64,000 nucleotides of DNA. It comes from Limibacter armeniacum. Its GTDB lineage: Bacteria; Bacteroidota; Bacteroidia; Cytophagales; Flammeovirgaceae. This document shows, piece after piece, positions 32,135 through 52,400 of this stretch. The stretch covers positions 1,922,001-1,986,000 of the forward strand of contig NZ_JBAJNO010000009.1 of the NCBI RefSeq assembly GCF_036880985.1, given 5' to 3'. The position numbers and the translations under genes were made by a program. The notes beneath the pieces are model-generated. The model was not told the DNA's origin and did no database searches. It saw only the letters and a program-made list of their open reading frames with translations. Within the stretch, counting starts at the first letter, position 1. Each line of letters begins with the position of its first letter.

Positions 32135-33220
32135 CTATCGAACTGAGCGTTGCTTCAGTGCGTCCCAATGCGCTGTCGTCATTGAGTTAAGATCAAAAAC
32201 AGAGACTCCCTTTGCTCCTCCCTTTTTTGCCATTTTCAATGCTTCGTCAAAGTCTGTAGCTTCAATAGAAGGAATAAAAAGTCCTGCATAAAGAGGAAAC
32301 TTACCATCCAATGCTTTCACACCTTTTTTGGCTGAGGACTTCACCCAATCCAGCTCCTCACTATAGAAGTTCTGATACAACATCGGGAAGATCATATCCA
32401 AACTCCAATCATCCCAAGACTGACGGCAAATCTTACGTGCCAAATCCGGTTGTGGGAACACTGCAGCCGAAAGCAGTTTATCATATTCATGCGTTACTTT
32501 GTACAAGTGATTCACCAACCTTGTGACGCTGTCGTAACGATACTGCCTCCAATCCGCATCAGCAGTAGGGTCTTCCAGTTTCATCACATCTTTTCCATAT
32601 TCCTCCTTGAATTTCTGCTGACAGGTTGGGCAATAGCAAAAGTCAAACTCAGGGTACTCCTTATCCTGAACAAGATTATACTTAGGCTGAAGTGCTATCG
32701 GTAAAATCACATCTGCATAACGTACATAATCCAAATGCACTCCTTTTAGCCCTTCTATTTGCGCTAATTCCCTTACTTGTGCTTCAATATGTTCCCGCAC
32801 TTCCTTTTTGGAAGGACAAGTCCATTTATAATATTCTACATAAGGCTGATGCTCGTGGCAGGATTTCCCTTCACGACTTACGGCAAACCAATCCGGATGC
32901 TTCCAAGCTTCTTCATCACCATTACGGTTTAAGGTCCACATCCAAGCATGCACTTCGATCCCTGCCTTTTCTGCCAACGGAATCACCTTTTCCAACATAT
33001 TTTTACCTCCACCCAATAGCAGTCCTTCAATATTGGCTTCCTTAAGTTGAGTCAACGTTGATAGCCACTTGTCTTCTGTCCACTCAGGTTTAGCGTGCAT
33101 CCACATCCAGTTCGTGGGAAGGTTCGGCACCCTGCCAAATGCGTTTGACAATAATGAAGTTCCCATTACAACGCCCGCAGAGGCAATACCTACATTCTTG
33201 ATAAAGTTTCTTCTTTGCAT
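32135..33220 (-). CDS. Tat-exported GH10-like putative glycoside hydrolase
   Basis: A 361-residue protein with a Tat-type signal peptide (MQRRNFIKN, then a hydrophobic stretch). The body looks like a TIM-barrel of the GHL10/'family 10-like' group: GVHLDYVRYADV resembles the family's conserved DYVRY strand, with WMWTLNRNG and a cysteine-containing CYCPTCQQKF insertion (possible zinc or disulfide). It is the last gene of the leftward N-glycan operon. I cannot name its substrate. Since no endo-beta-N-acetylglucosaminidase is encoded nearby, a role on N-glycan core or another linkage is a candidate, but this is speculation. Confidence 0.6.
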   Translation of the reverse strand: MQRRNFIKNVGIASAGVVMGTSLLSNAFGRVPNLPTNWMWMHAKPEWTEDKWLSTLTQLKEANIEGLLLGGGKNMLEKVIPLAEKAGIEVHAWMWTLNRNGDEEAWKHPDWFAVSREGKSCHEHQPYVEYYKWTCPSKKEVREHIEAQVRELAQIEGLKGVHLDYVRYADVILPIALQPKYNLVQDKEYPEFDFCYCPTCQQKFKEEYGKDVMKLEDPTADADWRQYRYDSVTRLVNHLYKVTHEYDKLLSAAVFPQPDLARKICRQSWDDWSLDMIFPMLYQNFYSEELDWVKSSAKKGVKALDGKFPLYAGLFIPSIEATDFDEALKMAKKGGAKGVSVFDLNSMTTAHWDALKQRSVR

Positions 33221-33247: not shown

Positions 33248-34357
33248 TTAGTTTACTTTTTGGGTTTGTTCCTTCTCAATCCAACTTCTGCTATCTTCAC
33301 GGAGATAGAAATACTGTTTTGCTATTTTATCGAAAAGCCTAACTGTAAAAGCACTCCCTAACGCCACCATTTCAAGAGGAAAAACCTCATCTCCCACTTT
33401 GATCGATGTAACACCTAAGTCTTTTAAATGTGTTGCATAGCTGCCGTTTTGTTTTCTATAAGCTGTTTGCAAGGATAGTATATCATATAGATGTCTTCTA
33501 ATTTTCTCTTCTCTCATTTCTGGCTTCAATGAAACAGCTCCCGATGGTTTGCTGGTAAACTGAAGATATCCCCACTGCTCAGGTACATGCATGTTAATAA
33601 CTCCTTGAGGAGACCATACCCAGTTGTACTCTGGCAATAGTTTTCTTGTTTGAGGGTTTCTCTTACGCTGATAGCTTCCATTTACCAATTCATGCTCCCA
33701 CTGTACCCGTGAAAAGTTGATTTTCCATCGATCACCCTCTTTTGGCTGCTTTTTACCTGAGGACTCTATCAGTGATGAAATAGGCAGGGCAATTTCTACA
33801 CTCCACTTCCTATCTACATCATTAGGATTGTTTATAGTACCTTCATGGCTTACCGCAGACTTTAACCCTTGCATATCCCAAGAGTTCATATATCTCCCCC
33901 AATTCCTGTAAGGCTTATTCAGCATTAAGTCCCAAACTGTATTCAATACATTCACCTCAAACTCCATATAGTTGTGGGTATCGCCATCTGGGTCCAGAAA
34001 AATCTCAAAGTCATTATTGTGAAAAATCACCGCATCCCTTTCGGTAATGTCTCCCCATATATGAGGCTCTTCCATCTCAGCCCCTACATATAAGTAGTCC
34101 TTATCCCATAGTAGCTTGATACGTGTCCTATAAAATGGCTTTGGTTTTTCATCCCCTTCTATATCAACAAAGTCAGCACTCCAAGCTGCCATCTCCCATG
34201 ATGTATCATCCAGTTTCCCATCAATTTTCAAAGGCTCCTTAGAGTGATAGCATAAATAAGCCTGAGGGGTTATTTCTTCCGGTTTTTCATAAACCTGAGT
34301 AAAACCACAATGAAAAGTCAGTAATAAAAAAAGTGTCAGAAAGTAAATGCGAGTCAT
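33248..34357 (-). CDS. CBM9-like/DOMON secreted carbohydrate-binding protein
   Basis: A 369-residue protein with a signal peptide (RIYFLTLFLLLTFHCGFTQ). The mature part begins PLKIDGKLDDTSW, typical of carbohydrate-binding family 9-like domains. It continues with the family's 'LYVGAEMEEPHIWG', FEIFLDPDGDTHNYMEFEVN and WKINFSRVQW motifs. No catalytic residues are recognisable, so it probably binds glycan or tethers a partner at the surface. Part of the leftward N-glycan operon, 43 bases downstream of GH125 and 27 upstream of the GH10-like gene. Confidence 0.85.
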   Translation of the reverse strand: MTRIYFLTLFLLLTFHCGFTQVYEKPEEITPQAYLCYHSKEPLKIDGKLDDTSWEMAAWSADFVDIEGDEKPKPFYRTRIKLLWDKDYLYVGAEMEEPHIWGDITERDAVIFHNNDFEIFLDPDGDTHNYMEFEVNVLNTVWDLMLNKPYRNWGRYMNSWDMQGLKSAVSHEGTINNPNDVDRKWSVEIALPISSLIESSGKKQPKEGDRWKINFSRVQWEHELVNGSYQRKRNPQTRKLLPEYNWVWSPQGVINMHVPEQWGYLQFTSKPSGAVSLKPEMREEKIRRHLYDILSLQTAYRKQNGSYATHLKDLGVTSIKVGDEVFPLEMVALGSAFTVRLFDKIAKQYFYLREDSRSWIEKEQTQKVN

Positions 34358-34400: not shown

Positions 34401-35831
34401 TCAGGATAATAGGTATGATCTTTCCTTATGAATCTTCAGGATCAATTCCCCGAACAAGGTGTTTGCCCAAGCAAACCAAGAGCGGGTAAACTTACTCGCA
34501 TCATCCTTATGAAAAGACTCATGCATAAACCCTGTATCAGCATGGGTTGTCTTCAGCAGCTGTAGACACTTTCTGATTTCATTGTCATCAATACTCGTCA
34601 TCCCCCTCATGATAATACTCATAGGCCAGATGTAGTCCAACCCAACATGTGGGCCGCCTACTCCTTCACCTGCCTTCCCCCTAAAAAAGTAAGGGTTATC
34701 TTCACTTAACACCAGCTGCCGGGTTTGTTGATAAAGGAGATCTTTTACATCGATACTATCCAAGTAAGGCAAGGCTAACAAGTTAGGTACATTAGCGTCA
34801 TCCATCAACACCCTGTTCCCAAACCCATCTACCTCATAAGCCAGTACCTCTCCATATTTGGCGTGATTTACCCTAGCATATTGTCCGAGTGCCACTTCTA
34901 CTTCTTCTCTCAAAGATTTAGCAGCTCCTAACAACTCCTTATCACTCAAAACTTCTTGGGCAATTTCTTCCAGTTGCTTTAGTGAGGTCACGGCAAAATA
35001 GTTGGAAGGAATCAGGAAAGGGAAAAGGGTTGCATCATCAGAAGGTCTGAAGGAGGAAACAATCAACCCAACTGGCTTGATTGGCGCACCGGCTCCCCAG
35101 TTTGGCAATGTATCTTCCTGTTTCTGTGTTTTCCGCATAAAACTATAAGGACCAACTCCATCCTTCCGTTGCTGTTCCCTAAAAGTCTTGATCACTGTTT
35201 GCATTGCGGACTTCCACTCATCATCAAAAACAGACCTATCCCCTGTTTCTTTCCAATAACCATACGCCAAACGAATCGGGTAACAAAGAGAATCAATCTC
35301 CCACTTACGTTCATGCAAACCTGGTTTCATCGTTGTAAAATCCGAGCCCCACATAGATGCTTTGGTTGGATCTACCTCAAAGGCATTCGCATAAGGATCT
35401 ATCAGAATGCAATAGCTTTGCCTGTGAATAAGTCCCCGAACAAGCCTCTTTAACTTTACATCCTGATTCACCAAGGGCAAATAAGGCCAAACCTGTGCCG
35501 TTGAATCCCTCAACCACATTGCTGGAATATCACCTGTAATGATCACTGTATCTGGTTTCCCATCCCTTTCCCCAAATACTTCCACTGTAGTATCTAGCGT
35601 ATTGGGATAACAGTTTTCAAACATCCACGCCAGTTCTGGATCATTGATTTGCTTTTTCACTTTAGCAATCAACTTATCCACTGCTTCAGAACGGAATTTC
35701 CTATCTTCTTTCTTCGGTCTCTTTGAAAGGAAAGTAGCCTGACTTGAACCATAAGCTACATTCAAATTGCCTAATGCGACAGTCCCAACAAACGCGACTG
35801 ATGTGTTTTTTAAAAAATCCCTTCTTCTCAT
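34401..35831 (-). CDS. GH125 exo-alpha-1,6-mannosidase
   Basis: A 476-residue protein with a Tat signal (MRRRDFLKN). The body matches GH125: [18 protein letters not shown] and the [17 protein letters not shown] region are typical, and a [10 protein letters not shown] segment probably contains the catalytic glutamate. GH125 enzymes remove non-reducing terminal alpha-1,6-linked mannose, the branch that remains on high-mannose N-glycans after alpha-1,2/1,3 trimming. Third-from-last gene of the operon; its start lies three bases after the stop of the GH2 gene. Confidence 0.93.
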
Positions 35832-35834
35832 TGC

Positions 35835-38396
35835 TTATGATTTTTGTGGATAACAATCTGTCAATGACTTTACCTGAATTGCTTTTTCCAGCTCTGCTGC
35901 ATTTTCAAAAGTTGTATCAGATATTGTAATAACCTTTTCCTCTCCTGGTAAAAGATCAAAATAGTTATCAGAGCAATAACCTTCTCCATCTAACTGAAGG
36001 AATATATATCTTGCCAACTTATCAGAGGTAAGTTTTACCTCAAACCCTGCTTTCACCTTGTTTATATGCATCTCTATCTGTGGGTTTGGCAATTGCTGAT
36101 TTTTTGGTTTTTGGAAGAAAAGTACATTCTCTAAAACACTATTATCTGCTCCTTGGAAGGTGACTTTCACAAAAGCATTTTTGTACTTATCACTAGACGG
36201 CAAAGCCAAATACACATCACTTTTGTTAGGTTGAACCACAACTGCTTTTTCCTGACTTGCCAGCACTTTCCCATTAAAGTCTTTTACCTCCACTTTCAAT
36301 AAACCTTTTCGACTCTCAAGCAGATCAGAAACGATATATACCTTGACTTCCCCATTTTCTTCAACAGGAGATACCAGAATAGGAGCAAAAGCTTTGCGCG
36401 TATAGTAATGCATGGCTTTCCATTCTCCATAATAGTCTATTGATGACCAAGAGGCAGCAGGCCAACAGTCGTTGAATTGCCAATACAAGGTCCCCATACA
36501 ATAAGGCATCGCCCTACGCTGTGCTTCAAAAGCCAACTTCATTCCTTCTGCCTGTAAGAGTTGCCCTACATAAACAAAATCCTCAAATGATTCAGGAATG
36601 ATAAAGTCCCGCTCCATATAGGTCTTAATCAGCTTATTTCCTTTATAACTTTTCTGATGAGTATTCATCACCTCAGTAGTCAACCCGAGATCCTCAGACT
36701 TAGTAATTTTCTGAAGTGTTTTAAAAGAGGGGAATGACTGAAAGCCAAATTCGCTCATAAAGCGGGGAATATACTCCTTGAAACTTTCAAACGGATACTC
36801 TCCATGCCAAACACCCCAAAAGTGATTATCTCCCTTAGCAAAGTCTTCTTTCTTTCCCCAATTGCTGATAGGAGAAGATGGGTAATAGAAACGTCCTGCA
36901 TCATATTCAGCTACCACTTCAGGCAGCAGCTCCTTAAACAGGCTTTCATAAAAACTATATAGCTTCTGGCGTAACTCATCCGAATACTGATAGGTGATTT
37001 CCCAACCCCAATTATCAAAACCTACCTGTATCTCATTGTTACCACACCAAAGGGCTAAAGAAGGATGGTTTCTCAAGCGTTTGACGTTGTAAATGGCTTC
37101 CCGCCTTACATTATCCAAAAAGTCCTTATCTCCAGGGTAAAGCGTACAAGCAAACATAAAATCTTGCCATACCAATAACCCTTTCTCATCTGCCAACTCA
37201 TAAAAAGTGTCACTCTCATATACGCCGCCACCCCAAATTCTAAGCATATTCATATTGGCAGTGACTGCATCATCCATCATTTTTTCATACTTCTGACGGG
37301 TCACCCTCGGCAAGAAGGAGTCGGAAGGAATTACATTCGCTCCTTTCATAAAAACAGGAACTCCGTTGACTTTCACATAAAAGCTCTCTCCCAAGCTATC
37401 CGGCTCATTGATTACTTCAAGGGTTCTAAGCCCCATTCTTTCATCCTGCTGGTCACAAACTTCCCCTGCCACTTCAACCGAAGTATTGATATTGTACAAG
37501 AATGCTTCCCCTAAACCATTAGGCCACCATCGTTTTGGATTATTCACCTGAAAAGTCAGTGGCAAACGATTTTCACCAGCCTTTAACCTTACTTTTGCCG
37601 TTTGGCTCGCAAACAAGTGATCAGCACTTGACACTGTCAATATTGCCTCACATTCCATAGCAGCGGTCAGTTCAAAATTGGCAGTCACTTCAGCAAGCTC
37701 ATCTGTCAGTTTTTTCTGTACCAACTGCACATTTTCAATCTTGGCACTATTCCATGCTTTCAAGCTTACTGGTTTCCAAACACCAGAAGTCACAAACCGA
37801 GGTCCCCAATCCCAACCATAGTGATAAGGTGCCTTACGGGTAAAAATACTCAGCTTTTCATCAGAAGCATCATTATCTGCTGGATAGGTAAAGTCCAGCT
37901 TTGAGGCTTTTTCTTTCACAAAATTGATAGGAGAGTGAAAGTAAATCTTCAACTCATTTTCACCTTCTTTCAAGTACTGCTTGCTTGGGATTGTCCACCC
38001 CACAAACATGTTATTGGTTTGCTTAACAAGCTTTCCGTTCAGATAGAGATCTGCATAGGTATCCAGACCTTTAAAATTCAAGTCGATACTGTCTTTTTCT
38101 ATCATAGAAGCCGAGACATTGAAGGTAGTTTTATACTCCCAATCCTCTTTTTCTATCCATTGTAGCTTCTTCTCATTATCTCTATAGAATGGGTCCTCTA
38201 TCTTACCGTTTGAATGCAAGTCCGTATGTACAGTACCGGGCACTGTAGCCTTTAGCCACTCATCAGTTCCTACCTGACGAAACTGCCAATTGGTGTGCAA
38301 TGTGATTTCTTCTGAAGAAACAGGGGCTACTTTTGAGCACCCCCACACTGTGAAGAGAATTCCCAAAAGTAGCCCGATATTGAATTTTGAATGCAT
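35835..38396 (-). CDS. GH2 beta-mannosidase lipoprotein
   Basis: An 853-residue protein with a lipoprotein signal (lipobox ending at Cys20) and the three-domain GH2 layout. The sugar-binding domain comes first, then the immunoglobulin-like domain, then the TIM barrel. The acid/base glutamate is in CGNNEIQ (E455) and the nucleophile in MSEFGFQS (E549). The N-terminal WQF and the later GGGVYESDTFYELADEKG match beta-mannosidases rather than beta-galactosidases. Predicted role: hydrolyse the core Man-beta-1,4-GlcNAc linkage of N-glycans. Full length. Confidence 0.93.
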   Translation of the reverse strand: MHSKFNIGLLLGILFTVWGCSKVAPVSSEEITLHTNWQFRQVGTDEWLKATVPGTVHTDLHSNGKIEDPFYRDNEKKLQWIEKEDWEYKTTFNVSASMIEKDSIDLNFKGLDTYADLYLNGKLVKQTNNMFVGWTIPSKQYLKEGENELKIYFHSPINFVKEKASKLDFTYPADNDASDEKLSIFTRKAPYHYGWDWGPRFVTSGVWKPVSLKAWNSAKIENVQLVQKKLTDELAEVTANFELTAAMECEAILTVSSADHLFASQTAKVRLKAGENRLPLTFQVNNPKRWWPNGLGEAFLYNINTSVEVAGEVCDQQDERMGLRTLEVINEPDSLGESFYVKVNGVPVFMKGANVIPSDSFLPRVTRQKYEKMMDDAVTANMNMLRIWGGGVYESDTFYELADEKGLLVWQDFMFACTLYPGDKDFLDNVRREAIYNVKRLRNHPSLALWCGNNEIQVGFDNWGWEITYQYSDELRQKLYSFYESLFKELLPEVVAEYDAGRFYYPSSPISNWGKKEDFAKGDNHFWGVWHGEYPFESFKEYIPRFMSEFGFQSFPSFKTLQKITKSEDLGLTTEVMNTHQKSYKGNKLIKTYMERDFIIPESFEDFVYVGQLLQAEGMKLAFEAQRRAMPYCMGTLYWQFNDCWPAASWSSIDYYGEWKAMHYYTRKAFAPILVSPVEENGEVKVYIVSDLLESRKGLLKVEVKDFNGKVLASQEKAVVVQPNKSDVYLALPSSDKYKNAFVKVTFQGADNSVLENVLFFQKPKNQQLPNPQIEMHINKVKAGFEVKLTSDKLARYIFLQLDGEGYCSDNYFDLLPGEEKVITISDTTFENAAELEKAIQVKSLTDCYPQKS

Positions 38397-38423: not shown

Positions 38424-39698
38424 TTATTCTGCCATCTCTCCTACTAAATAAGCCGACACCAACCAGTGGTTGAATTCATTCTTTTCGGTATCCAATGGCT
38501 GTGCATCCGGAATACTGATAGTCAGCGTATGTTGTCCTGCCTCAACCCCTACCAATGGAATCATCAATGGCGTTACCGATGAACCCGGACACCAGTTAGA
38601 ACGCGATAGGTCAGAAGATGCCTGAAACTCTTCAATCTCTGTCTCTACCAATTGTTTGGTTGACTTGTCCCTTACCTTCGTTGATCTCTTGATCTGCCAT
38701 GTTCCTGAATGAGGATTGAAACGACGGAAAGATGCACAATCGTCTCTCCAAGGGAAAAATCGATAAAGCGGTTCTCCATCAAGGGAGAGAATATTCTCTT
38801 CTTTTACAAACTCATCTCCCTTAGCATGTCCACCATGACCTGTTGTGATATAAGCCAATTGCACATGCTTTGCACCTTCTGGTACTTCAAAGGATAGTGT
38901 CAGGTCATTTTTAGAGAAACCGTCATAATGTTTGATAGGTCCCATATAAGGAACTGTATTTAAAACTGGGGTAACAAAACGTCTCTTCTTTTGCTCTACG
39001 GCCAACTCACTCTCATCAAAGTCCAGTTCCATAGACAGCTTATAGCCCTCTTTGGTCCAAGTATCAATCCAGACACCGACCCAAACCTCATCTTCCAGTT
39101 CAGGCAAAAGCTTAGTGATATCTTCCTCCCAAACAACCTCATGTTCCCAATGAGGAATATACACGGGTTTTCGGAAATCCATCTCACCTCCTGATTCACT
39201 GTAGTGACCTACGCCAAAAGGAGTCATAAAGCGCATTAATTCTAATGACGGGATGTAACCTTCTTCCTTTACAATACCTGGAAATATCTCTCCTTCTGTC
39301 TCTGCACCTTTTAGTTTCAGCTCTTTCTTTGCCAACTGCATCAGGGTTTCAGGAGCTGCCTTCGGCAATACAAATGCTGAACCTGACTTATCCCAAGGGT
39401 CTCCCGCTGAAGTAAGTATGATCTTGATACTCGCTTTTGTTTCCCTCAAATAATGTGGTAGTGTTACCTTCTTCAGCAGCATCCGTCCTGATTCCAACCT
39501 TACGACTCCATTTTCTGCTTCCAACAGTGGCTTGCCCTCCATCATATCAGGCTCAAACCTGATTGATTCTTCCTCAAAGACGGTAATACGTTTATCTCCT
39601 ACTGCATCTAGCTCCTTGTATTTTGAACAGGATGATAGTACGAATGCCACCATAACCAATAATTGCCCTACTTTCCTGTAGCCCAACGGTAAGTTCAT
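38424..39698 (-). CDS. PNGase F-type peptide-N-glycosidase lipoprotein
   Basis: A 424-residue protein with a lipoprotein signal (LSSC). The mature region carries the two jelly-roll domains of the peptide-N-glycosidase F family: LTSAGDPWDKSGSAFVLP and LMRFMTPFGVGHYSES in the first, and ITTGHGGHAKGDEFV, FFPWRDDCASFRRFNP and SSDLSRSNWCPGSS in the second. The acidic residues (D in GDPWD, and D/E near 'RDDCAS') fit the catalytic site. It should cleave the glycan-Asn bond of N-glycoproteins, releasing a glycan with a 1-amino-GlcNAc end. The flanking glycosidases then have a free substrate. Confidence 0.9.
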   Translation of the reverse strand: MNLPLGYRKVGQLLVMVAFVLSSCSKYKELDAVGDKRITVFEEESIRFEPDMMEGKPLLEAENGVVRLESGRMLLKKVTLPHYLRETKASIKIILTSAGDPWDKSGSAFVLPKAAPETLMQLAKKELKLKGAETEGEIFPGIVKEEGYIPSLELMRFMTPFGVGHYSESGGEMDFRKPVYIPHWEHEVVWEEDITKLLPELEDEVWVGVWIDTWTKEGYKLSMELDFDESELAVEQKKRRFVTPVLNTVPYMGPIKHYDGFSKNDLTLSFEVPEGAKHVQLAYITTGHGGHAKGDEFVKEENILSLDGEPLYRFFPWRDDCASFRRFNPHSGTWQIKRSTKVRDKSTKQLVETEIEEFQASSDLSRSNWCPGSSVTPLMIPLVGVEAGQHTLTISIPDAQPLDTEKNEFNHWLVSAYLVGEMAE

Positions 39699-39715: not shown

Positions 39716-40477
39716 TTAAAAAAGTGTATGATGCTTGTCCAGAGTACTACGCATGGCTCGTACCTTATCTTCTCCCACCATATGCAATTCATACTCTGAC
39801 CCCGTATAATTCTTGTTCATATTGATACGTGTGTTACGGAACTTGACACGGCTCGGTACTGTAATACTTGCCGAAGAGTGAAATTCTACAGCGTCTGTAT
39901 CCATCATCAGTTGTGCAATATTCTGTTCTGTTACGCCACTACCCAACATAATGGTAATCCGACCATTGGCTTGGGTTACCAGCTTCCGAATATTTTCAAC
40001 TCCTTCTATTACAGTATTCGCCTGCCCTGATGTCAGCACTCGATCAACCCCTAACTCAATTAAGTCTTCCAGTGCCTCTTCTGGGTTACAACACATATCA
40101 AAAGCCCTATGGAAAGTCACCTTCATTGGCCTGGCAAGATCAATTAGTTCCTTGATTCTAGCTTTGTCAACCCTTCCATTATCATTCAGTAAACCAATCA
40201 CTACCCCATCAACACCCAATTCCTTGGCATTCTGAATATCCGCTTTCATTTGCTCCACCTCTAGGTCTGAGTAGCAAAAATCACCTCCTCTAGGCCTTAT
40301 AATAGGGAACAGTTGAATTTTCAGATACTTTCGCGCCAATGCAATTGCTCCCATACTTGGAGTTGTTCCACCTTCCAAAAAGCCACTACATAGTTCTACC
40401 CTATCAGCTCCACCACTTTGGGCTGCAATAGCTGACTCAACTGAGTAAGCGCATATTTCCAATAATTTCTTTTCCAT
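39716..40477 (-). CDS. cutC: CutC-family TIM-barrel protein
   Basis: A 253-residue protein matching the CutC family: RVELCSGFLEGGTTPSMGAI, IIRPRGGDFCYSDLEVEQM, LGVDGVVIGLLNDNGRVD and VTFHRAFDMC are all present. CutC was named for copper homeostasis in E. coli, but its biochemical activity is not settled. Here the gene sits inside the N-glycan operon, 80 bases after GH92 and 17 before PNGase F, with no copper genes nearby. That context suggests a role tied to N-glycan breakdown, perhaps on an amino-sugar or glycosylamine product, which is inference. Confidence 0.9.
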   Translation of the reverse strand: MEKKLLEICAYSVESAIAAQSGGADRVELCSGFLEGGTTPSMGAIALARKYLKIQLFPIIRPRGGDFCYSDLEVEQMKADIQNAKELGVDGVVIGLLNDNGRVDKARIKELIDLARPMKVTFHRAFDMCCNPEEALEDLIELGVDRVLTSGQANTVIEGVENIRKLVTQANGRITIMLGSGVTEQNIAQLMMDTDAVEFHSSASITVPSRVKFRNTRINMNKNYTGSEYELHMVGEDKVRAMRSTLDKHHTLF

Positions 40478-40557: not shown

Positions 40558-42825
40558 CTAAATCGATGGTTTTGCGCTCATCTCAAATTCCAGTTTTCCG
40601 CCATTCAAAATTTCCTGATGGGTGATCAAGTGGCCTTTCAGAACCTTTCCGTTCAGTTTGACCGATTTGACATAGATATTCTGATCAGATTTGTTATTTG
40701 TCGTAATTTCCAATGTTTTGCCATTTTTCAGCTGAATCTGTACACGATCAAAAAGTGGTGTCCCGATTACATACTGTCCCGAGGCAGGGTTTACAGGGTA
40801 TATTCCCATTGCACTCATTACATACCAAGCTGACATCTGTCCACAATCCTCATTTCCACTAATCCCTTCTGGTTGTGCTGAGTATTGGGTGGTCATAATT
40901 TCATGCACTTTTTCTGCTGTCTTCTCTGGCGCCCCAGCCAATGCATACAAGTAAGTAATATGATGACTTGGTTCATTGCCATGTGCATATTGGCCTATCA
41001 GTCCCGAAATATCCGGTGATGCATGATCTCCTGTAATCTCAGAACTTTCAGAAAACAGTAGATCCAACTTATTAACAAATGCCTTATTGCCACCGTGAGC
41101 CTTGATCAACCCTTCTACATCCTGCAACACAAACCAGCTATGTTGCCAAGCATTCCCCTCTGTATAATCAGTATCCTTTCTGTGCTCAGACCGTTTAGGA
41201 TCAAATGGTGTTCTCCAGTTTTCTTTTGAATCCTTACCCCTCATAAAACCTGTCTCCTTATCAAAAAGGTATTGCCAAGCTTCAGAGCGTTTCAGAAACG
41301 CCTTATAGTCTGACTGTTTTCCCAGTTTTTGGGCCACTTGTGCAACACACCAGTCATCAAAAGCATATTCCAAAGTAATGGTCACTGACTCGTCCTGCTT
41401 ATCCAAAGGGATATAACCATACTTCTTATAATGATTCAATCCTCTGATATCTTTCATCTGCGTTTCCTTCATGGCCTCAAAAGCTTTGTCATAATCAAAA
41501 CCTTTAACTCCTTTCAGAATCGCATCTGTAATAACAGGAATTGAATGATTACCAGTCATACAGTCTGTCTCATTGGCTGCCAGTGCCCAAACAGGCAAAC
41601 GTCCATTTTCATCATAATGCCTCAACATGGTATTGACCATATCAGACACTCTATCTGCATCAAGAATGGTGAAAAGTGGATTGTTGGCACGGAAAGTATC
41701 CCAAAGTGAAAAGGTTGAGTAATAAGTTCCAGCCGTCTTATGTACCTGTTGATCTGCACCTCTATACTGGCCATCCACATCGGAAAGAATTGTTGGTGCT
41801 AGTTTGGTATGATATAATGCAGTGTAAAAAATAGACTTCAGCGAATCAGTATCAGCACTTACCTGAATTTGATTCAGCTCTTTGTCCCAAAGCTTGAATG
41901 CTTTGTTTTTGATTGTTTCAAAATCCCAATCCGGATTCTCTTTAGCTAAATTGTTTTTTGCTCCTTCAACACTTACTGTTGATAATCCGACCTTTACTAA
42001 CACTTCCTCATCAGCTTCCACATCAAAGAAAAATTGTCCTTTGGTCTTGGCCGCCATCACTGATTGTGCATTCTCGTTTGCCAATGAAGTTCCCTCTACA
42101 AGCTTATAGGATTTAATTGGCTTGGAAAACTCCATCACAAAATACACTTGCTGATTGGCTGCCCAACCTTTACTGAACCTGTATCCTGAAACAATGGTTG
42201 GGGCTTCAACCCTGATTTCCGTATCATAAGGTCCATCCCAGTTGATTGCAAAACCAAGATCCATAACAACAGAGGCTTCCCCTATTTCAGGAAACGTATA
42301 ACGGTGCATACCGCTACGTTCTGTCGTTGTGAGTTCTGCCTTAATCTGAGAAGGCTGTAAGGTCACCTGGTAAAAGCCTGGTCGGGCTACTTCCTGCTGA
42401 TGGCTATACTTCGCTTTATAATCATAGTCATCTCTAGACTTGATCTTCTTAGTCAAATCTACAGATGCTGTGGTTGGCATAATCAGGATATCAGACAAAT
42501 CTCCAATTCCTGTACCTGAAAGTGCGGTATGCGTGAAACCCACAATGATACTATCCGAATAATGATAGCCTGACACCCAGTCCCAGCCACTCTTACCATT
42601 GTTAGGACTAAGCTGTACCATCCCAAAAGGCACTGTTGCTCCAGGGTAAGTATGTCCGTGTTCACCAGTACCTATAAACACATCCACTTCCTCGGCAGGA
42701 GTCTTTGCTATTTCCTGTGTTGTATTTTTCGGGGTGGTACAACTTCCTAAGCACACCGCCAACAATGCGGTTCCCCATATATGCCATTTGTGGTTTTCAA
42801 AAAATCTCTTCTTTGATGCTTTCAT
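40558..42825 (-). CDS. GH92 alpha-mannosidase lipoprotein (operon head)
   Basis: A 755-residue protein with a lipoprotein signal (Cys at residue 29, GSCTT). All hallmark GH92 segments are present: YPGATVPFGMVQLSPN, HTALSGTGIGDL, HGNEPSHHITYLY and the calcium/catalytic-region SGNEDCGQMSAW near the C-terminus. GH92 enzymes are calcium-dependent inverting exo-alpha-mannosidases, commonly acting on alpha-1,2 or alpha-1,3 links in N-glycans. This is the first gene of the seven-gene leftward operon, preceded by two copies of the YGCAYAAACRYGCA motif. Confidence 0.95.
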   Translation of the reverse strand: MKASKKRFFENHKWHIWGTALLAVCLGSCTTPKNTTQEIAKTPAEEVDVFIGTGEHGHTYPGATVPFGMVQLSPNNGKSGWDWVSGYHYSDSIIVGFTHTALSGTGIGDLSDILIMPTTASVDLTKKIKSRDDYDYKAKYSHQQEVARPGFYQVTLQPSQIKAELTTTERSGMHRYTFPEIGEASVVMDLGFAINWDGPYDTEIRVEAPTIVSGYRFSKGWAANQQVYFVMEFSKPIKSYKLVEGTSLANENAQSVMAAKTKGQFFFDVEADEEVLVKVGLSTVSVEGAKNNLAKENPDWDFETIKNKAFKLWDKELNQIQVSADTDSLKSIFYTALYHTKLAPTILSDVDGQYRGADQQVHKTAGTYYSTFSLWDTFRANNPLFTILDADRVSDMVNTMLRHYDENGRLPVWALAANETDCMTGNHSIPVITDAILKGVKGFDYDKAFEAMKETQMKDIRGLNHYKKYGYIPLDKQDESVTITLEYAFDDWCVAQVAQKLGKQSDYKAFLKRSEAWQYLFDKETGFMRGKDSKENWRTPFDPKRSEHRKDTDYTEGNAWQHSWFVLQDVEGLIKAHGGNKAFVNKLDLLFSESSEITGDHASPDISGLIGQYAHGNEPSHHITYLYALAGAPEKTAEKVHEIMTTQYSAQPEGISGNEDCGQMSAWYVMSAMGIYPVNPASGQYVIGTPLFDRVQIQLKNGKTLEITTNNKSDQNIYVKSVKLNGKVLKGHLITHQEILNGGKLEFEMSAKPSI

Positions 42826-42982: not shown

Positions 42983-43762
42983 TTATATATGCTCAATTCC
43001 TAAATGACGAAACGGTGAAAATGCAGCAGGTTCCTGCCCTGCCTCTGTGATAATAGTATGGATTTTATCGACAGGAACAGCTAAAAATGGCTGTGCAGAG
43101 CCTAATTTTTCCTGAAGTGCCACTGCCACAACTCTTTTGGATGCCATTGCCATAGCACGCTTCACTCTAACTTCTTCTCTGTCAATATCCGTCACTCCTC
43201 TGACGGCATCAATACTTCTGACACCCAAGAAAAAGATATCAGCATGCATATCTTTCAACGCTTCTGTCACTTCGTGTCCAATAGTAACCTGAGCATTTGG
43301 CAAGATCTTTCCTCCTAAAAAGTAAACATCTACAAACCTGTACTCCACTAATTTTGAAGCTACTAACAAGCAGTTTGTAAAAAAGGTAGCTTTCAAGTCC
43401 GCTGGAAGATTCTTTACAATTTCAAGGTTAGTTGTTCCGCCATCAATTAAGACTACTGAATCATCATGAATCAGTTCTACTGCTTTTTTGGCTATAACTG
43501 TTTTCTCATCACGGGCATATATTTCCCTATCCTCATAACTAAAAGGAATATATGACGAAGAAGCTGTCTTATTATTTGATTCACTTGAGATCGCTCCACC
43601 ATGTACTCGTCTGATCTTGCCTGCATCCGAAAGTTCTCTCAAATCTCTCCTGATGGTATCTTCCGACACATTCAGTTCGGTGCTTAATTCTGATGACAAT
43701 ACTTTATTGTTTTTGCGCACAATATCCAGAATATAGTTCTGGCGCTCTTCTTTCAGCATCAT
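42983..43762 (-). CDS. DeoR/GlpR-family transcriptional regulator
   Basis: A 259-residue regulator with the N-terminal DeoR helix-turn-helix (VSEDTIRRDLRELSDAGKIRRVHGGA) and a C-terminal sugar-phosphate-sensing isomerase-like domain (IDGGTTNLEIVKNL, then FLGGKIL). DeoR proteins respond to phosphorylated sugar intermediates, so it could sense mannose-6-phosphate or N-acetylglucosamine-6-phosphate made from released N-glycan. It lies between the leftward operon and the rightward M28-AGA-GH92 genes. Candidate operators lie on both sides of it, so it is the best local candidate for the motif's regulator. It shares a start region with site G at 43809-43822. Confidence 0.92.
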   Translation of the reverse strand: MMLKEERQNYILDIVRKNNKVLSSELSTELNVSEDTIRRDLRELSDAGKIRRVHGGAISSESNNKTASSSYIPFSYEDREIYARDEKTVIAKKAVELIHDDSVVLIDGGTTNLEIVKNLPADLKATFFTNCLLVASKLVEYRFVDVYFLGGKILPNAQVTIGHEVTEALKDMHADIFFLGVRSIDAVRGVTDIDREEVRVKRAMAMASKRVVAVALQEKLGSAQPFLAVPVDKIHTIITEAGQEPAAFSPFRHLGIEHI

Positions 43763-43822: not shown

Positions 43823-43930
43823 CGTTATTAGTATTTGATAACAACACCAATGCAGTTTGGTGTTGTTAAGCTAATTAAATTTGAATCAAATTTAGGAAAA
43901 ACCATACAAACAGGCAGACTTACTATTAAC

Positions 43931-45510
43931 ATGAAGAGGTTTTTTATTCTTAACCTATTGTGGTGCTATTTTACTTTTTCATTGATGGCACAAGTTCCCA
44001 AAGAAAAAGGGCTACAAGCCATTGACATCAATACTTGTCAAGGACAGCTCGAATTCTTAGCATCCGACTGGATGGAAGGCAGGGAGGCTGGTCAGAAAGG
44101 GGGATATATGGCTGCTGATTATCTCGCCAGCATGTTCAAAGTATTTGGATTATCTCCAGCTGGTGATTCTATCAATGGCACTCCTACCTATTTTCAGACA
44201 TTCAATGTAATCGAATACAAAGCCGCTAAGGAGCAAGCCTTTGAAGTAATACATGCGACAAAAACAGGCAAAAGCACTCAAAAACTCACCTACCATACTG
44301 ACTTCATTATAGATGTATCAAGTATTGGTATTGATGTAGAAGCACCCTGGTTTTTGTCGGATATGGGCTGGACACGGAGGAATACAGCGATTACCAAAAA
44401 ATCCAAGTGAAAGACAAAATTGTCATTAGGCTTACTGGTTTTCCTGGACATTCAGACTCTCTCTCAACTGGTTTCAAATTGTTCGCTTCTTATACACCAA
44501 AACAGCTTCGCAAAGCAAAGGATGAGGCAGCTATTAACAATGGTGCTTTAGCCGTAATTGAATTTACGCCTGAGCAAGATGTCATGTCCAGCAAATGGAC
44601 TGCAAATGCACCTTTTCGTTATAACCGATCCTATTATGAAGGAGATTCCCAATTACCTTCTTTCTATGAAACCAAGCTATCTTCAGTAGATCAGCCCGTG
44701 AATATTACAGTTGCCCATATTGGCCCTAGAGCTGTCCATAACCTTTTTAAAGATGAAAGCATTGACCTTAAAAAAGGCGAAAAACAAGCAGCTAAAACAC
44801 TTGTTCCATTCTCTCAAAATCTGAATGGAAAAAAGGTACACCTTTCTACCTCTGTTGATTCTCGCCTAATGGAAGTGAAAAATGTATTGGCGATGATTCC
44901 TGGCAAAACAGATGAAATTGTGGTTGTTGGTGCGCATTATGACCATTTGGGAAAACATGGTGGATATATTTTCAATGGAGCTGATGACAATGCTTCGGGG
45001 TCAGTAGCGGTCACGTCTATTGCGAAAGCATTCATTGCATCAGGAGTACAACCTGAACGCAGTGTGATATTTGCCCTGTGGACAGCAGAAGAAAAAGGGC
45101 TACACGGCTCTCGGTATTTCACACACCATTTCCCTAAAATGGAAAAAGTAAAAATGTACCTTAACTTCGATATGATTGGAAGAAAAGCAGATTGGCATAG
45201 CAAAGAGAATGAAGTCAGTATGATTTATACAAAAGGCAACACCCATATTACAAGCACCAATCAGCAAAACTTGGATAAGTACCAACTGGATTTGGGCATC
45301 ATTGATGGTGCTACAGAAAAAGGTAAAGCAGCCAACAGTGATCAAGTAAATTTCGACGCTTTTGGGGTTCCTTATTTTTGGTACCATACAGGAGGGCATC
45401 AACACTACCATCAGGCAGGTGACCACTCCAATGAAATCATGTGGGACAAAATGCTACGAATCATTAAACTGAGCTACTTAAACATTTGGGACTTTGCTCA
45501 CAACCTATAG
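43931..45510 (+). pseudogene. M28 metallopeptidase gene, interrupted by one missing base
   Basis: Two overlapping frames encode one M28 (Zn aminopeptidase-type) protein of about 526 residues. The upstream part, from ATG at 43931 (signal peptide MKRFFILNLLW), reads to 44410. The downstream part is open from before 44407. At 44351-44355 a T5 run would need a sixth T: the sequence then reads WFFVGYGLDTEEYSDY, a natural continuation. The metal-binding residues lie downstream and look intact: AHYDHLG, GADDNASG, AEEKG, NFDMIGR and HTGGHQHYH. As written, the protein would lose its catalytic half. A homopolymer position makes a sequencing error possible. Its downstream neighbour AGA, 49 bases away, suggests trimming of glycopeptides. 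Confidence 0.85.
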
Positions 45511-45559: not shown

Positions 45560-46543
45560 ATGGAAAACAACAGCAGAAGAAACTTCATAAAAAAATTATC
45601 AGTTGCATCACTAGCTGGAGCATCAATTCCAGCACTTTCATTTGCAATGGAAGGAAAAGCAAAAGGCAACAAACCACTTATGGTCTCTACTTGGAATCAC
45701 GGAATGGGAGCCAACGAAGCAGGATGGGAAATCCTGAAAAATGGTGGATCTGCCTTAGATGCTGTTGAGGCAGGCGTAAGAGTACCAGAAGGCGACCCAA
45801 TGGAAAGAAGTGTAGGATTTGGTGGATTACCTGACCGTGAAGGTCGTGTAACTTTGGATGCTTGTATCATGGACCACGAGAGCCAATGTGGTGCCGTAGC
45901 CTTTCTACAAGACATCAAGCACCCTATATCGGTTGCAAGACTTGTTATGGAGAAAACGCCTCACGTCATGCTTGTTGGAAAAGGAGCCAAGCAGTTTGCC
46001 CTTTCTCAAGGATTCAAAGAAGAAAACCTCTTAACTGAGCAGTCAAGAAAAGACTGGGAAGAATGGAAGAAAAAATCAAAATACCAACCTGTTATCAATA
46101 TCGAAAACCACGATACTATTGGCTCTCTAGCAATTGACTCAAAGGGCAATCTGGCAGGCGCATGTACCACTTCTGGTGCAGCCTACAAGCTTCATGGTAG
46201 AGTAGGCGATTCTCCTATTATTGGCGCCGGATTGTTTGTTGATGGTGAAGTGGGAGCTGCCTGTGCTACAGGTTTGGGTGAAGCCGTAATCAGAACTGCT
46301 GGCAGTGCCATTGTCGTAGAGTTGATGAGACAAGGCCTATCACCTAAAGACGCTTGTGAGGAAGCTGTAAAGAGAATCATTCATAAACACAAAGACCTCA
46401 CTAACCTACAGGTTGGCTTCCTTGCGCTCAATAAGGATGGCGTTTATGGTGGCTATAGCGTCTATGCAGGTTTCAACTGGGCAGTTGTTGACAATAAAGG
46501 CGGCAACAGAATGGAAGATGCCGAATACAAAAAGGAATGGTAA
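45560..46543 (+). CDS. N4-(beta-N-acetylglucosaminyl)-L-asparaginase (glycosylasparaginase)
   Basis: A 327-residue Ntn-hydrolase with a Tat signal (SRRNFIKK). The self-cleavage and nucleophile site is intact, with the threonine T186 in NHDTIGSLAID preceded by Asp185. Other family segments: STWNHGMGANEAGWEIL, GFGGLPDREGRVTLDAC and GDSPIIGAGLFVDGEVGAACATGLGE. The enzyme cleaves the bond between GlcNAc and Asn in glycoasparagines, generally needing a free Asn alpha-amino and carboxyl group. That fits an upstream aminopeptidase (M28). The gene is followed after 67 bases by a GH92 gene, in one rightward unit. Confidence 0.93.
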   Translation: MENNSRRNFIKKLSVASLAGASIPALSFAMEGKAKGNKPLMVSTWNHGMGANEAGWEILKNGGSALDAVEAGVRVPEGDPMERSVGFGGLPDREGRVTLDACIMDHESQCGAVAFLQDIKHPISVARLVMEKTPHVMLVGKGAKQFALSQGFKEENLLTEQSRKDWEEWKKKSKYQPVINIENHDTIGSLAIDSKGNLAGACTTSGAAYKLHGRVGDSPIIGAGLFVDGEVGAACATGLGEAVIRTAGSAIVVELMRQGLSPKDACEEAVKRIIHKHKDLTNLQVGFLALNKDGVYGGYSVYAGFNWAVVDNKGGNRMEDAEYKKEW

Positions 46544-46610: not shown

Positions 46611-48875
46611 ATGAAACGTTTCAGCTATTGGGTTTCACTTCTACTTATAGGAATCCTTTCGGGATGTACCAACAATCAACCAACAGAAGAACAAACAAAC
46701 AACGTACAACTCACCTCATATGTAAATCCTTTTGTCGGGACCGACGGCCCTGGCAATACTTACCCAGGTGCTACAGTTCCTTACGGGATGGTACAACTAA
46801 GCCCTGACAACGGATATTCAGGGTGGGACAGAATTGCTGGATATTTCTGGCCAGACACTACTATTGCCGGATTCAGTCATTTACACCTTTCGGGGACTGG
46901 TGCCGGAGACCTTTACGACTTACTTTTCATGCCTTTCAACAGTCGTTCAGACAGGGCATTGGTGGAGAATGGTGACCGAAGACCTGCCTCTCTTTTTTCT
47001 CATGAGGAAGAACATGCTGAACCGGGTTACTATCAAGTGAAGTTACAAGACTTTGACATCAATGCTGAAATGACAACCAGCAGAAGAGCCGGCATGCAAC
47101 GGTACACATTTCCTGCTGATAATAAATCTCAGATTGTCCTTAACCTTGGCTATGCACTCAACTGGGATTGGCCTACAGAAACCTTCATAAAAATAGAAGA
47201 TGACCATACGCTAGTTGGTTACAGGAAATCAGCTGGGTGGGCAGCCAACCAACATGTATATTTTGTTGCACAGTTCGACAAGCCATTTACCTATGAACTT
47301 AAGGAAATTGAAGAGCCTAAAGAAAAGAAGAAATACAGAAAGCCTTTTAAAGAGCGATTGATTAAAAGTGCTGAAGTTAAAGGATTGCGCACGAAAGCAT
47401 ACCTTACTTTTGCCACACCTGAGCAGACCACCGTACAAGTCAAGGTAGGTATCTCCTCGAGTAGCATTGAAGGAGCAAAGCAAAACCTCAACACAGAGAT
47501 TACTGACTTTGATTTCGACAAAGTCAAAACGAATGCATCCAAGGCATGGGAAGATCAACTGGAAAAAATCATTATCAAGTCTGACAACCATACAGAAAAG
47601 CAGGTATTCTATACAGCTATGTACCAAAGTATGTTAGCACCTACGCTTTTCTCTGACATTGATGGTAAATACAAAGGAGCTGATGGCAAGATACAAACAG
47701 CAAAAGGTTTTGAACGTTACGATACCTTTTCTCTTTGGGATACTTTCCGTGCCGCTCACCCTTTATATACTTTAATCCACACAGACAGGGCTAGAGACAT
47801 GGTTGCTTCTTTGATGGCTCATTACCGTGAGACGGGCTTACTCCCTGTTTGGTCATTTCAAGGCAACGAGACCAATATGATGATTGGTTATCATGCTGTC
47901 CCTGTCATTGTTGATGCCTACACAAAAGGAATACTCAATGACTTTGACGCTGAAGAGCTTTTTCAAGCATGTAAAGCCAGTGCAATGAATACGAAAAACG
48001 AGGATATCGCTGCCTACATCAACCATGGCTATGTACCTGTCGTGGAAAAGCACGAACATTGGTCAGTTTCCAAAACACTTGAATATGCCTATGATGACTG
48101 GTGTGTGGCCCAACTGGCAAAAGCACTAAACAAGCAGGAAGATTATAAGTACTTCTCAAAGCGCGCTGAAAACTGGCAAAATGTATATGACAGTACATCT
48201 ACATTTATGCGACCAAAATTAGCTGATGGAGAATTTCAGCAGCCATTTATTCCTAAAGAGTACACAGACCCTTTCTGTGAAAGCAATGCATGGCAATATT
48301 TCTGGTTTGTTCCACAAAATGTACAAGGACTAGTAGAGACAGTTGGAGGTAAAGATAAGTTTACTGCAAAATTAGATTCCATGTTCACATTTGACCCGCT
48401 TCCAGAAGACAAATTACCTATCTTCTCAACGGGCATGATTGGACAATATGCACATGGCAACGAGCCAAGTCACCACGTAGCTTACCTGTACAATTACATT
48501 GGAAAGCCTCACAAAACTCAGGAAATGGTACACAGGATTCTCAAGTCACAATATAAGCCAACACCTGATGGGGTCTGTGGCAATGAGGATTGTGGACAAA
48601 TGTCAGCATGGTTTATCATGAGTTCACTGGGCATCTACCCAGTCAACCCAGCATCTGGAGTATACGATCTTACAACTCCACTCTTCAGCAACTCAGAAAT
48701 TTCATTAGGCAATGGACATAAGCTAACCATCAAAACCTCTAAACCACCACAAGATTACCCTTATATTAAATCTGTAAGGCTAAATGGAAAGCCAATTCAG
48801 CATTTGCAGGTTAGCCACAAAGAACTTGCAGAAGGCGGCACACTCGAATTTGAATTAACAAACAGTATCCACTAA
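46611..48875 (+). CDS. GH92 alpha-mannosidase lipoprotein
   Basis: A 754-residue protein with a lipoprotein signal (LLIGILSGCTNN). Typical GH92 motifs are present: YPGATVPYGMVQLSPD, HLHLSGTGAGDLYD, HGNEPSHHVAYLY and CGNEDCGQMSAW. Predicted alpha-1,2/1,3-mannosidase. Follows the M28 and AGA genes in the same orientation and is probably in their operon. Confidence 0.95.
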   Translation: MKRFSYWVSLLLIGILSGCTNNQPTEEQTNNVQLTSYVNPFVGTDGPGNTYPGATVPYGMVQLSPDNGYSGWDRIAGYFWPDTTIAGFSHLHLSGTGAGDLYDLLFMPFNSRSDRALVENGDRRPASLFSHEEEHAEPGYYQVKLQDFDINAEMTTSRRAGMQRYTFPADNKSQIVLNLGYALNWDWPTETFIKIEDDHTLVGYRKSAGWAANQHVYFVAQFDKPFTYELKEIEEPKEKKKYRKPFKERLIKSAEVKGLRTKAYLTFATPEQTTVQVKVGISSSSIEGAKQNLNTEITDFDFDKVKTNASKAWEDQLEKIIIKSDNHTEKQVFYTAMYQSMLAPTLFSDIDGKYKGADGKIQTAKGFERYDTFSLWDTFRAAHPLYTLIHTDRARDMVASLMAHYRETGLLPVWSFQGNETNMMIGYHAVPVIVDAYTKGILNDFDAEELFQACKASAMNTKNEDIAAYINHGYVPVVEKHEHWSVSKTLEYAYDDWCVAQLAKALNKQEDYKYFSKRAENWQNVYDSTSTFMRPKLADGEFQQPFIPKEYTDPFCESNAWQYFWFVPQNVQGLVETVGGKDKFTAKLDSMFTFDPLPEDKLPIFSTGMIGQYAHGNEPSHHVAYLYNYIGKPHKTQEMVHRILKSQYKPTPDGVCGNEDCGQMSAWFIMSSLGIYPVNPASGVYDLTTPLFSNSEISLGNGHKLTIKTSKPPQDYPYIKSVRLNGKPIQHLQVSHKELAEGGTLEFELTNSIH

Positions 48876-49401: not shown

Positions 49402-52400
49402 ATGGTAAATCTAATGGACAGAAGCAGAAAACTGCTGCTGTTACTGGCTACAATCTTTGCTATAGCTAGTTCGGCATTCGCACAAGAGCGTGTCATCAGT
49501 GGCGTCATCACCGACGCAAATGACAACTCACCTTTACCTGGCGCTAGTGTACAGATTAAAGGAACTACTACAGGTACTATCTCAGACTTTGACGGTAGGT
49601 TTCAATTAAAAATCGACCAGTCACAACCAACCATTACTATCAGCTATGTTGGCTACCAACCAAAAGAAATAGTATTGGGAGAGAACCAAAGTAATCTTAC
49701 AATCCAACTAGAAGCTGACGCTGAACAGCTAGATGAAGTAGTAGTTACAGCACTAGGCATCAAAAGAGAGGAAAGATCACTTGGTTATGCAGTATCAGAA
49801 GTAAGCTCTGAAGATTTGGGGGTTACAGGTACCAATGCCAACGTAATGAACTCACTGAATGGTAAAGTTGCCGGTGTACAGATCTCTCCAGTAGGTGGTG
49901 GCGCTGGCGCTTCTTCAAGAGTTGTTATTCGTGGTAATGCAGTCTTAGGAGGCAGCAACCAACCGCTTTATGTGGTAGACGGTGTACCAATGTCCAACAG
50001 TAACTACAAGAATGCTGAAGACAAAGATAATGGCGACGTTGACTCTGGTGATGGTCTCTCTTCTATCAACCCTGATGATGTTGCCTCAGTATCAGTACTG
50101 AAAGGCCCTGCTGCTACAGCACTTTACGGCTCAAGAGCAATTAACGGTGTTGTCTTAATTACAACTAAGTCTGGTAAGGACAGAAAAGGATTGGGTATTG
50201 ACTATTCTGGTGGGGTTACAATAGATATGTTAGGTATTACTCCAAATGAACAAACTCAATATGCACATGGTACTCAAGGAAACCTTCCTAATGACCCTAA
50301 GCAAGATTACAGTATGTGGGGACCAAAAATCACTGGTCAAAGCAACAGTAATTATTACGATGGACAGGAGCGCAACCTACAAACTTATGACAACTACAAA
50401 AACTTCTTTAGAAATGGTGTAACATTCAACAACAGCATTTCCTTAACTGGAGGTAACGAGTCTTCACAAGTTCGCTTTTCCTACTCTAACCTGAACAACT
50501 CAGGTATGGTTGAGAACTCTGACTACAACCGTCACACATTCAACCTACGTGGTACTACTAAGTTAATCAATGAGAAACTAACTCTAGATTCTCGTATCAC
50601 TTATACGAATCAGTACGCGCTTAACCGTATGGAATTGGGTAACTCAGTAAACAACTACATGGGACAAATGCTCTCAATTCCGACTACATATGATGTAACT
50701 TGGTTAAAGAATTATGAAAGTGCAGATGGCAGACCTATTGGATATAACAATAAGGAAATGAACCCTTACTGGACGATCAATAAGGTGAGAAATGAAGATA
50801 CTCAAAACCGTGTTCTTGGTATGTTATCCCTTAACTACCAATTGACTAACGAACTATCAATCATGGCTAGAGGTGGTACTGACTTCACTTCATGGAGACA
50901 AGATGTACTACAACCTCTTTACACTCCTTACTATGACCAAGGCAGAGCATACCAAAGAACAAACCTTGATCGTGAAGACAACTATGACTTCCTAATCAGT
51001 TACCACAAAGAGCTTGGCGACTTTGATATCTCTGCCAACGCAGGTGGTAGCTATATGCACCAAACTAGAGAATACAATGATGCAGGTTCATCAGGGTTCT
51101 CTTCTCCAACATTCCAAAACCCTGGTGCAGGTAGTGAGCGATATATCGAGTTTAACAAATTTGAGCGCGTAATCAGCTCAGTATATGCAATGGCTTCAAT
51201 TGGTTACAAAGGCTACTTATTCCTAGATGTAACAGGAAGAAATGACTGGTCTTCTACGCTGCCTGCAAATAATAACTCTTACTTCTACCCTTCAGTAAGT
51301 ACTAGCTGGGTATTCTCAGATATGGATTGGGACACACCTGACTGGTTATCATTCGGTAAACTGAGAGCTTCATGGGCACAAGTAGGATCTGACACAGACC
51401 CTTATAGCTTATTTGTTCAATATGAACTTGATGGACAGGATCATAAGGGTATAAATGTAGGTGGTATTCAAGGTAACCAAATCCCTAACTTTGAACTTAA
51501 GCCTGCCATGCAAACTTCTTATGAAGTCGGTTTTGATGTACGTATGTTTAACAGCCGTGTAAACCTTGACCTGTCATATTACAACTCTTCTTCTGTTGAC
51601 CAGATCCTTGCGGTGGATATTTCTAATGGGTCAGGATTCAACTCAGCATTGATCAATGCAGGTGAAATCAAAAACAGTGGTGTAGAGATGATGTTAAACC
51701 TTATCCCTGTACAATCTCAAGACTTTACTTGGGAAGCTACTGTAAACGCTGCATACAACAACAACGAAGTAATCTCACTTTCAGAAGGTGTAGAGCAATA
51801 CATGTTGCTTCCTACAACTGGTGATGTTTCGGTGCAAGCTCGTCCAAATTCAGCCTACGGCCAAATTATTGGCTCAAAATACAGAAGAGATGATGCAGGC
51901 AACATTGTAGTAGATGAAAACGGTTTACCAATGAAAGAAGATGGACTTGATATCATTGGTAATGGTGTCCAACCTTGGATGGCTGGTTTGAGAAATACAT
52001 TTACATACAAAAATGTTTCATTCGGATTCCTAATTGACGGCAAGTTTGGTGGTGATCTTTATTCAAACACTAACGCAAGTCTCTATGCATCTGGAAAGCA
52101 CGAAGCAACATTGGTTGGTCGAGATGAATACTACAACGAAGGATACTGGAACCCAGGAGGCTTGGTTACATCTGACGGCGAGGCATTCACTGGAAGCATC
52201 GACCCTGAGTTATACTATGGCAGAATATCAGGCATCAGTGAGCAGTTTATTTACGATGCTTCATTCATCAAGCTTCGTGAAGTGATACTAACATATCGTT
52301 TACCAAACAAACTGATTGATAAAACACCATTCCGTAATGTTTCATTGTCAGCGGTTGCAAACAACTTGACATACCTGTGGAAAAACACTGAGAACATTGA

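Follow-up and report, generated by a model that had tools for sequence, protein, structure and literature searches.

Why should a protein named for copper homeostasis be encoded in the middle of an operon for N-glycan breakdown? The question is raised by a cutC gene of Limibacter armeniacum, which we examined within a 64,000-nucleotide stretch of contig NZ_JBAJNO010000009.1 (the window), together with its counterparts and their neighbours in other genomes.

An intact cutC gene in an N-glycan cluster

The sole open frame at 39716-40477 lies on the minus strand and encodes an intact CutC of 253 residues. The Pfam profile PF03932 (CutC) matches residues 5-204 with 249.1 bits, relative to a curated cut-off of 23.3, and is covered from position 2 to 201 of 202; a whole-genome search found a single copy of CutC in the 8.04-Mb genome. 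The minus-strand cluster reads DeoR regulator, GH92, CutC, PNGase F, GH2 mannosidase, GH125, CBM9-like and GHL10-like protein, with GH92 upstream of cutC and PNGase F only 17 bp downstream, and the divergent plus-strand cluster reads M28 peptidase, AGA (glycosylasparaginase), GH92, SusC, SusD, GH92, GH92 and ROK kinase (Table 1). Reading frame, Pfam assignment and gene order agree with the initial annotation, which named no strand and had placed CutC between GH92 and PNGase F inside an N-glycan operon with no copper genes near; Pfam named no copper family in the 26 window ORFs scanned (of 35 that are at least 200 aa long).

Table 1. Genes of the two divergent clusters around cutC (positions in the window)
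Feature	Position	Strand	Evidence and remarks
GHL10-like putative glycoside hydrolase	32135..33220	-	Pfam
CBM9-like protein	33248..34357	-	Pfam
GH125 alpha-mannosidase	34401..35831	-	Pfam
GH2 family, mannosidase type	35835..38396	-	Pfam
PNGase F, both N-glycanase domains	38424..39698	-	Pfam; best solved match 3ks7, 426 bits
CutC (PF03932), 253 aa	39716..40477	-	Pfam; signal peptide not apparent by eye; predicted phosphate-binding-type TIM barrel
GH92 alpha-mannosidase, upstream of cutC	40558..42825	-	Pfam
DeoR/GlpR-type regulator, first gene of minus cluster	42983..43762	-	Profile match
M28 peptidase, two overlapping ORFs (43835-44410, 44407-45510)	43835..45510	+	PF04389 matched by second ORF only
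Glycosylasparaginase (AGA), N-terminal RR (Tat-like) signal	45560..46543	+	PF01112; solved-structure match 3ljq
GH92	46611..48875	+	Pfam
SusC-type TonB-dependent transporter	49402..52500	+	Pfam
SusD-like lipoprotein	52514..54457	+	Pfam
GH92, two overlapping ORFs (54768-56786, 56759-57808)	54768..57808	+	Pfam
GH92	57904..60171	+	Pfam
ROK-family sugar kinase	60205..61302	+	PF00480; best solved match 3mcp 'glucokinase'

By similarity, the AGA gene of the plus cluster encodes a true glycosylasparaginase: its product scores 421 bits against the solved glycosylasparaginase 3ljq versus 152 bits against an isoaspartyl peptidase, and H184, D185 and T186, which we take to be the nucleophile motif, are invariant in all 17 aligned AGAs. 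The two M28 ORFs upstream of it overlap by four bases, a split that may be a genuine frameshift or an error in the sequence. One GH92 gene is likewise split, with a break at approximately 56759-56786; its second ORF holds the rest of the catalytic domain (profile positions 386-464) and C-terminal carbohydrate-binding-type domains. A second PNGase F gene is found on another contig of the same genome (640482-640955), with no CutC there.

The gene content of the window matches that of Bacteroidota N-glycan utilisation loci (GH92, GH125, GH2, PNGase F, SusC/D), although CutC, present here, is not among their described parts in the searchable literature. The closest precedent is the nix N-glycan cluster of Xanthomonas, in which N-glycan glycosidase genes and cutC (XAC3091) share one region, as in the window, with cutC filed under copper metabolism/resistance (PMC6718126). 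The accessible part of that paper does not tie cutC to glycan chemistry and mentions no pairing with AGA (PMC6718126).

Glycosylasparaginase is the recurrent neighbour of cutC in Bacteroidota

In a sample of 296 Bacteroidota genomes, 92 of which have CutC, we retrieved up to 20 kb around each match and clustered the genes; 94 of the 95 loci were used, the one left out being a locus with a broken CutC. A seeded search recovered AGA at 48 of the 94 loci when the whole surveyed region is counted, and at 46 within 2.5 kb (47 of 95 loci by gene clustering). By our own arithmetic, one given gene of a 4-Mb genome would fall within such a 20-kb region by chance about 0.5% of the time. AGA lies directly upstream of CutC on the same strand and at most 300 bp away in 34/94 loci, and forms a divergent pair with it in 8/94. 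The second-commonest neighbour cluster, an ABC ATPase, occurs at 17 of the 95 loci and is never adjacent to CutC. When same-strand AGA-CutC pairs from the Bacteroidota, named and Pseudomonadota sets are taken together, 67 of 80 are separated by 250 bp or less and 20 touch or overlap. A separate scan of named loci placed AGA beside CutC in 36/80, one of them from Acidobacteriales.

Genes for other N-glycan enzymes are much rarer within 2.5 kb of CutC at the 94 loci: GH2 mannosidase at 10, GH20 at 5, GH92 at 4 and PNGase F at 1, which is the window itself. The expectation that cutC would be linked to N-glycan or amino-sugar genes in relatives was borne out by this survey, with AGA as the dominant neighbour, while the emphasis of the initial annotation on PNGase F was not. 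We also considered PNGase F as the key partner of CutC at the level of whole genomes and rejected it, since it is present in 18 of the 92 genomes with CutC and 27 of the 204 without (p = 0.17).

The linkage is far from universal. AGA is absent from the surveyed region at 46 of the 94 loci, and neither AGA nor a nag gene lies within 2.5 kb at 45. When the neighbours at loci lacking AGA are sorted by Pfam family, the result is scattered and adds little: Epimerase accounts for 5, Esterase for 5, pseudouridine synthase for 4 and GH20 for 3 of 97 proteins (167 were prepared and 124 of them listed, and 27 of these, mostly repeats from similar loci, were omitted). Mapped onto a CutC tree, the label linked or unlinked requires 21 changes, which suggests that linkage has been lost or regained many times, on a quick tree in which 55 of 140 inner branches are weak.

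AGA and CutC co-occur across Bacteroidota genomes

To follow AGA irrespective of its position, a profile of 17 AGAs was searched over the 296 genomes with a threshold of 388 bits, set at a visible gap between 388 and 353 bits. An AGA orthologue is present in 84 of the 92 genomes with CutC and 35 of the 204 without (Fisher p 1e-35, in a test that ignores kinship). GH125 served as a control alongside PNGase F and is found in 31/92 versus 16/204 genomes. Judged by the two controls, the link to AGA exceeds what a general N-glycan lifestyle would give. The 35 genomes that carry AGA without CutC count against it. The broken CutC excluded above (locus L124, G037:C34) has in-frame stops, and its genome keeps an AGA orthologue elsewhere.

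Outside Bacteroidota cutC tracks N-acetylglucosamine genes

A different partner emerges in Pseudomonadota, for which 199 genomes were sampled and 31 have CutC. NagA occurs in 30/31 genomes with CutC and 35/168 without, and AGA in 6/31 and 2/168 (Fisher tests on these counts ignore kinship), so that 25 of the 31 have no AGA match of 388 bits; among 19 CutC-containing genomes probed from outside Bacteroidota, AGA above 340 bits was not found in 15. Xylose isomerase, taken as a control, is also enriched (17/31 versus 19/168), from which it follows that sugar-rich lifestyles account for part of the NagA signal. Among Pseudomonadota without xylose isomerase, NagA is present in 13 of 14 genomes with CutC and 21 of 149 without. 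Of the 31 CutC carriers, Chitinibacter tainanensis (G311; L221, L237) is the only one for which no NagA was detected at E 1e-40.

The local operons outside Bacteroidota include SIS-ROK-GatZ-NagA-CutC, SIS-SIS-ROK-NagA-CutC, CutC-GH2-GH125-GH92 and AGA-GH85-CutC-GH2-GH92. Annotated plasmid clusters with CutC carry NagA, NagB, ROK or BadF kinases, GH20, MurQ and sugar transporters, and in Listeria the neighbours of CutC are a mannose-type PTS and a sugar isomerase. An amino-sugar-type gene lies within 2.5 kb of CutC at 12 of 18 plasmid loci, hand-picked rather than random from 67 records (L144 and L145 were left out as they have no annotation), versus 10 of 31 Pseudomonadota loci. No AGA or nag-type neighbour was seen at the other 21 of these 31, totals that include one CutC (L252) absent from the gene map, whose greedy ORF calls are rough in GC-rich loci. 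Enteric and Pseudomonas-like CutC loci, labels guessed from gene order, adjoin argS or a GNAT gene, and the CutC contexts of E. coli, Enterococcus, Parabacteroides and Cetobacterium have no amino-sugar-type neighbour.

Several other patterns recur. At seven Pseudomonadota loci (L244-L250), a gene of 162-169 aa directly follows CutC on the same strand, that of L245 encoding a GNAT acetyltransferase. Plasmid clusters of alphaproteobacteria repeatedly have an M81 metallopeptidase gene close to CutC (L126, L138, L139, L140). At L129, L137 and L253, the genes near CutC encode GatZ/KbaZ, a sugar isomerase, ROK and either NagA or an amidohydrolase, a grouping that suggests a branch for GalNAc in addition to the one for GlcNAc.

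CutC is predicted to form an enzyme-like TIM barrel

The AlphaFold model of the window CutC (pLDDT 96.5) superimposes on human CUTC (3iwp; 48% identity, Z 38.5, rmsd 1.0) and on Shigella CutC (1twd; 44% identity, Z 37.3). The window protein is thus predicted to have the fold of its family, of which Bacillus 4r9x and Streptococcus 2bdq are further structures, and it keeps the conserved barrel residues. The best solved folds outside the family are MfnB (Z 21.6) and hexulose-6-phosphate synthase (Z 20.9), followed by RuBisCO-like proteins, PdxJ, TrpF and DeoC. All of these are enzymes that bind phosphorylated substrates. MfnB, hexulose-6-phosphate synthase, PdxJ, TrpF and DeoC, the nearest phosphate-binding TIM barrels outside the family with Z ~17-22, share 10-20% identity with the window CutC, a likeness of fold that shows no function; Foldseek/VIA on the model returned no function either. 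The model and its fold matches are consistent with the earlier description of CutC as a TIM-barrel enzyme.

A rich set of conserved residues is found in an alignment of 223 CutCs. E7, E28, D127, G151 and H200 are present in all 223, H123 in 220, and R26 and R61 are nearly invariant; E7, E28, H123, D127 and H200, together with R26 and R61, would form a putative acid/base set in the mouth of the modelled barrel. G179 (214/223) and G181 (215/223) are also conserved and, with H200, were considered as signs of a phosphate bound at strands 7-8, where no ligand was seen; strands 6-8 of the modelled barrel would form a putative phosphate site. With regard to the cysteines, the window protein has both C9 and C30, which we take to be the proposed Cu+ site; C30 is kept in 219 of the 223 and C9 in 161. 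Judged from the alignment, conservation is of the kind that marks a catalytic pocket and not a metal site made of two cysteines.

Less likely roles: copper, housekeeping or glycosylamine hydrolysis

Could CutC nevertheless bind or handle copper, its position in sugar operons being incidental? We regard this as very improbable. The reading has in its favour the curated family name, the near-universal C30, and the properties of the human protein: according to the accessible part of a review, CUTC binds one Cu+ weakly, and its knock-down in worm and in human HepG2 cells raises copper sensitivity (PMC11083455). These eukaryotic data are the reason for keeping copper as a minor rival, and they stand against our conclusion that the present evidence lends no support to a role in copper handling. 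In E. coli, by comparison, cutC mutants reportedly owe all of their copper sensitivity to the missing MicL, an sRNA whose gene overlaps cutC (PMC6538781; MicL also PMC6338753), and micL does overlap cutC in the E. coli K-12 record. The other cysteine of the proposed pair, C9, is missing from more than a quarter of the aligned CutCs. The surroundings of the gene do not match the copper label, either in the window, where it lies in an N-glycan operon near AGA, or elsewhere: none of the 18 annotated plasmid neighbourhoods contains a copper gene (one has an RND efflux set, substrate unstated), and the 25 families seen most often among the 97 neighbours at loci without AGA include none for copper. 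The window CutC scores 278.9 bits against the NCBIfam equivalog PRK11572, 'copper homeostasis protein CutC', below its cut-off of 311.

Two further readings have to be weighed. The dispersed, unlinked contexts of about half of the loci, and the presence of CutC in humans and in enteric bacteria, would be accommodated if it were a housekeeping or metabolite-repair enzyme, only incidentally useful to amino-sugar eaters; the patchy distribution of CutC (92/296 Bacteroidota, 31/199 Pseudomonadota), which tracks AGA or NagA, is unlike general housekeeping and makes us consider this quite unlikely. AGA releases 1-amino-GlcNAc. The initial annotation had proposed a glycosylamine or another N-glycan intermediate as the substrate, and the dominance of AGA among the neighbours, together with its co-occurrence in both phyla, fits an enzyme that removes ammonia from the 1-amino-GlcNAc which AGA, or an enzyme of the PNGase type, leaves behind. 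Yet that proposal is weakened by the CutC genes found in pure NagA/ROK/SIS operons, by the many CutC-containing genomes outside Bacteroidota in which AGA was not detected at 388 or 340 bits while NagA is nearly always present, and by the lack of association with PNGase F. In addition, 83 of 89 CutC-linked AGAs carry an RR (Tat-like) export-type signal, from which one would expect the amine to form outside the cytoplasm; 1-amino-GlcNAc also hydrolyses spontaneously. The proposal is kept as one variant of the role put forward below but does not account for CutC in nag operons of genomes in which AGA was not detected, and glycosylamine hydrolysis as the main activity seems to us unlikely, somewhat less so than a housekeeping role.

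A proposed role in N-acetylhexosamine catabolism

The common denominator of AGA, NagA, NagB, ROK, BadF and GH20 is N-acetylhexosamine, not glycosylamine, and this points to the substrate class of CutC. We therefore think that CutC is probably an enzyme that works in the cytoplasm on the catabolism of N-acetylhexosamines, chiefly GlcNAc, and that in the window it serves the N-glycan pathway. The cellular compartment is predicted from the signals: AGA has one for export and none is apparent by eye on CutC, which should accordingly meet the products in the cytoplasm.

We infer the following steps. Once exported, PNGase F and the GH92, GH125 and GH2 enzymes would strip the N-glycan, and exported AGA would cut the remaining GlcNAc-Asn to aspartate and 1-amino-GlcNAc, which would become GlcNAc. 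The sugar would then enter the cell and be phosphorylated by a ROK or BadF kinase, and CutC would act on this pool in the cytoplasm, either ahead of NagA and NagB or alongside them. The predicted phosphate site and the conserved acid/base set point to a substrate that is either the 6-phosphate of an N-acetylhexosamine or the unphosphorylated sugar. The chemistry would most likely take place at C1/C2: anomers could be exchanged, the sugar epimerised, or an adduct at C1, for instance a glycosylamine, hydrolysed.

The CutC family has long been known, and it is the functional assignment that would be new. Our literature search found no paper joining CutC with glycosylasparaginase, and two in which CutC, as a copper homeostasis protein, and N-glycan both occur; most subscription papers were outside its reach, and we do not claim that the connection is unpublished. 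A bolder version, which we hold only tentatively and consider rather doubtful, is that the CutC proteins, with human CUTC among them, supply a missing step of GlcNAc salvage by acting at C1 of N-acetylhexosamine or its 6-phosphate (on the anomer, epimer or glycosylamine), downstream of glycosylasparaginase and hexosaminidases, and that their copper name is a historical error arising from the MicL overlap in E. coli. Loss of glycosylasparaginase causes the lysosomal disease aspartylglucosaminuria. CutC spans bacteria to humans and has carried its copper label without a known activity; its linkage to AGA and its near-obligate co-occurrence with NagA in Pseudomonadota would now give it a concrete substrate class.
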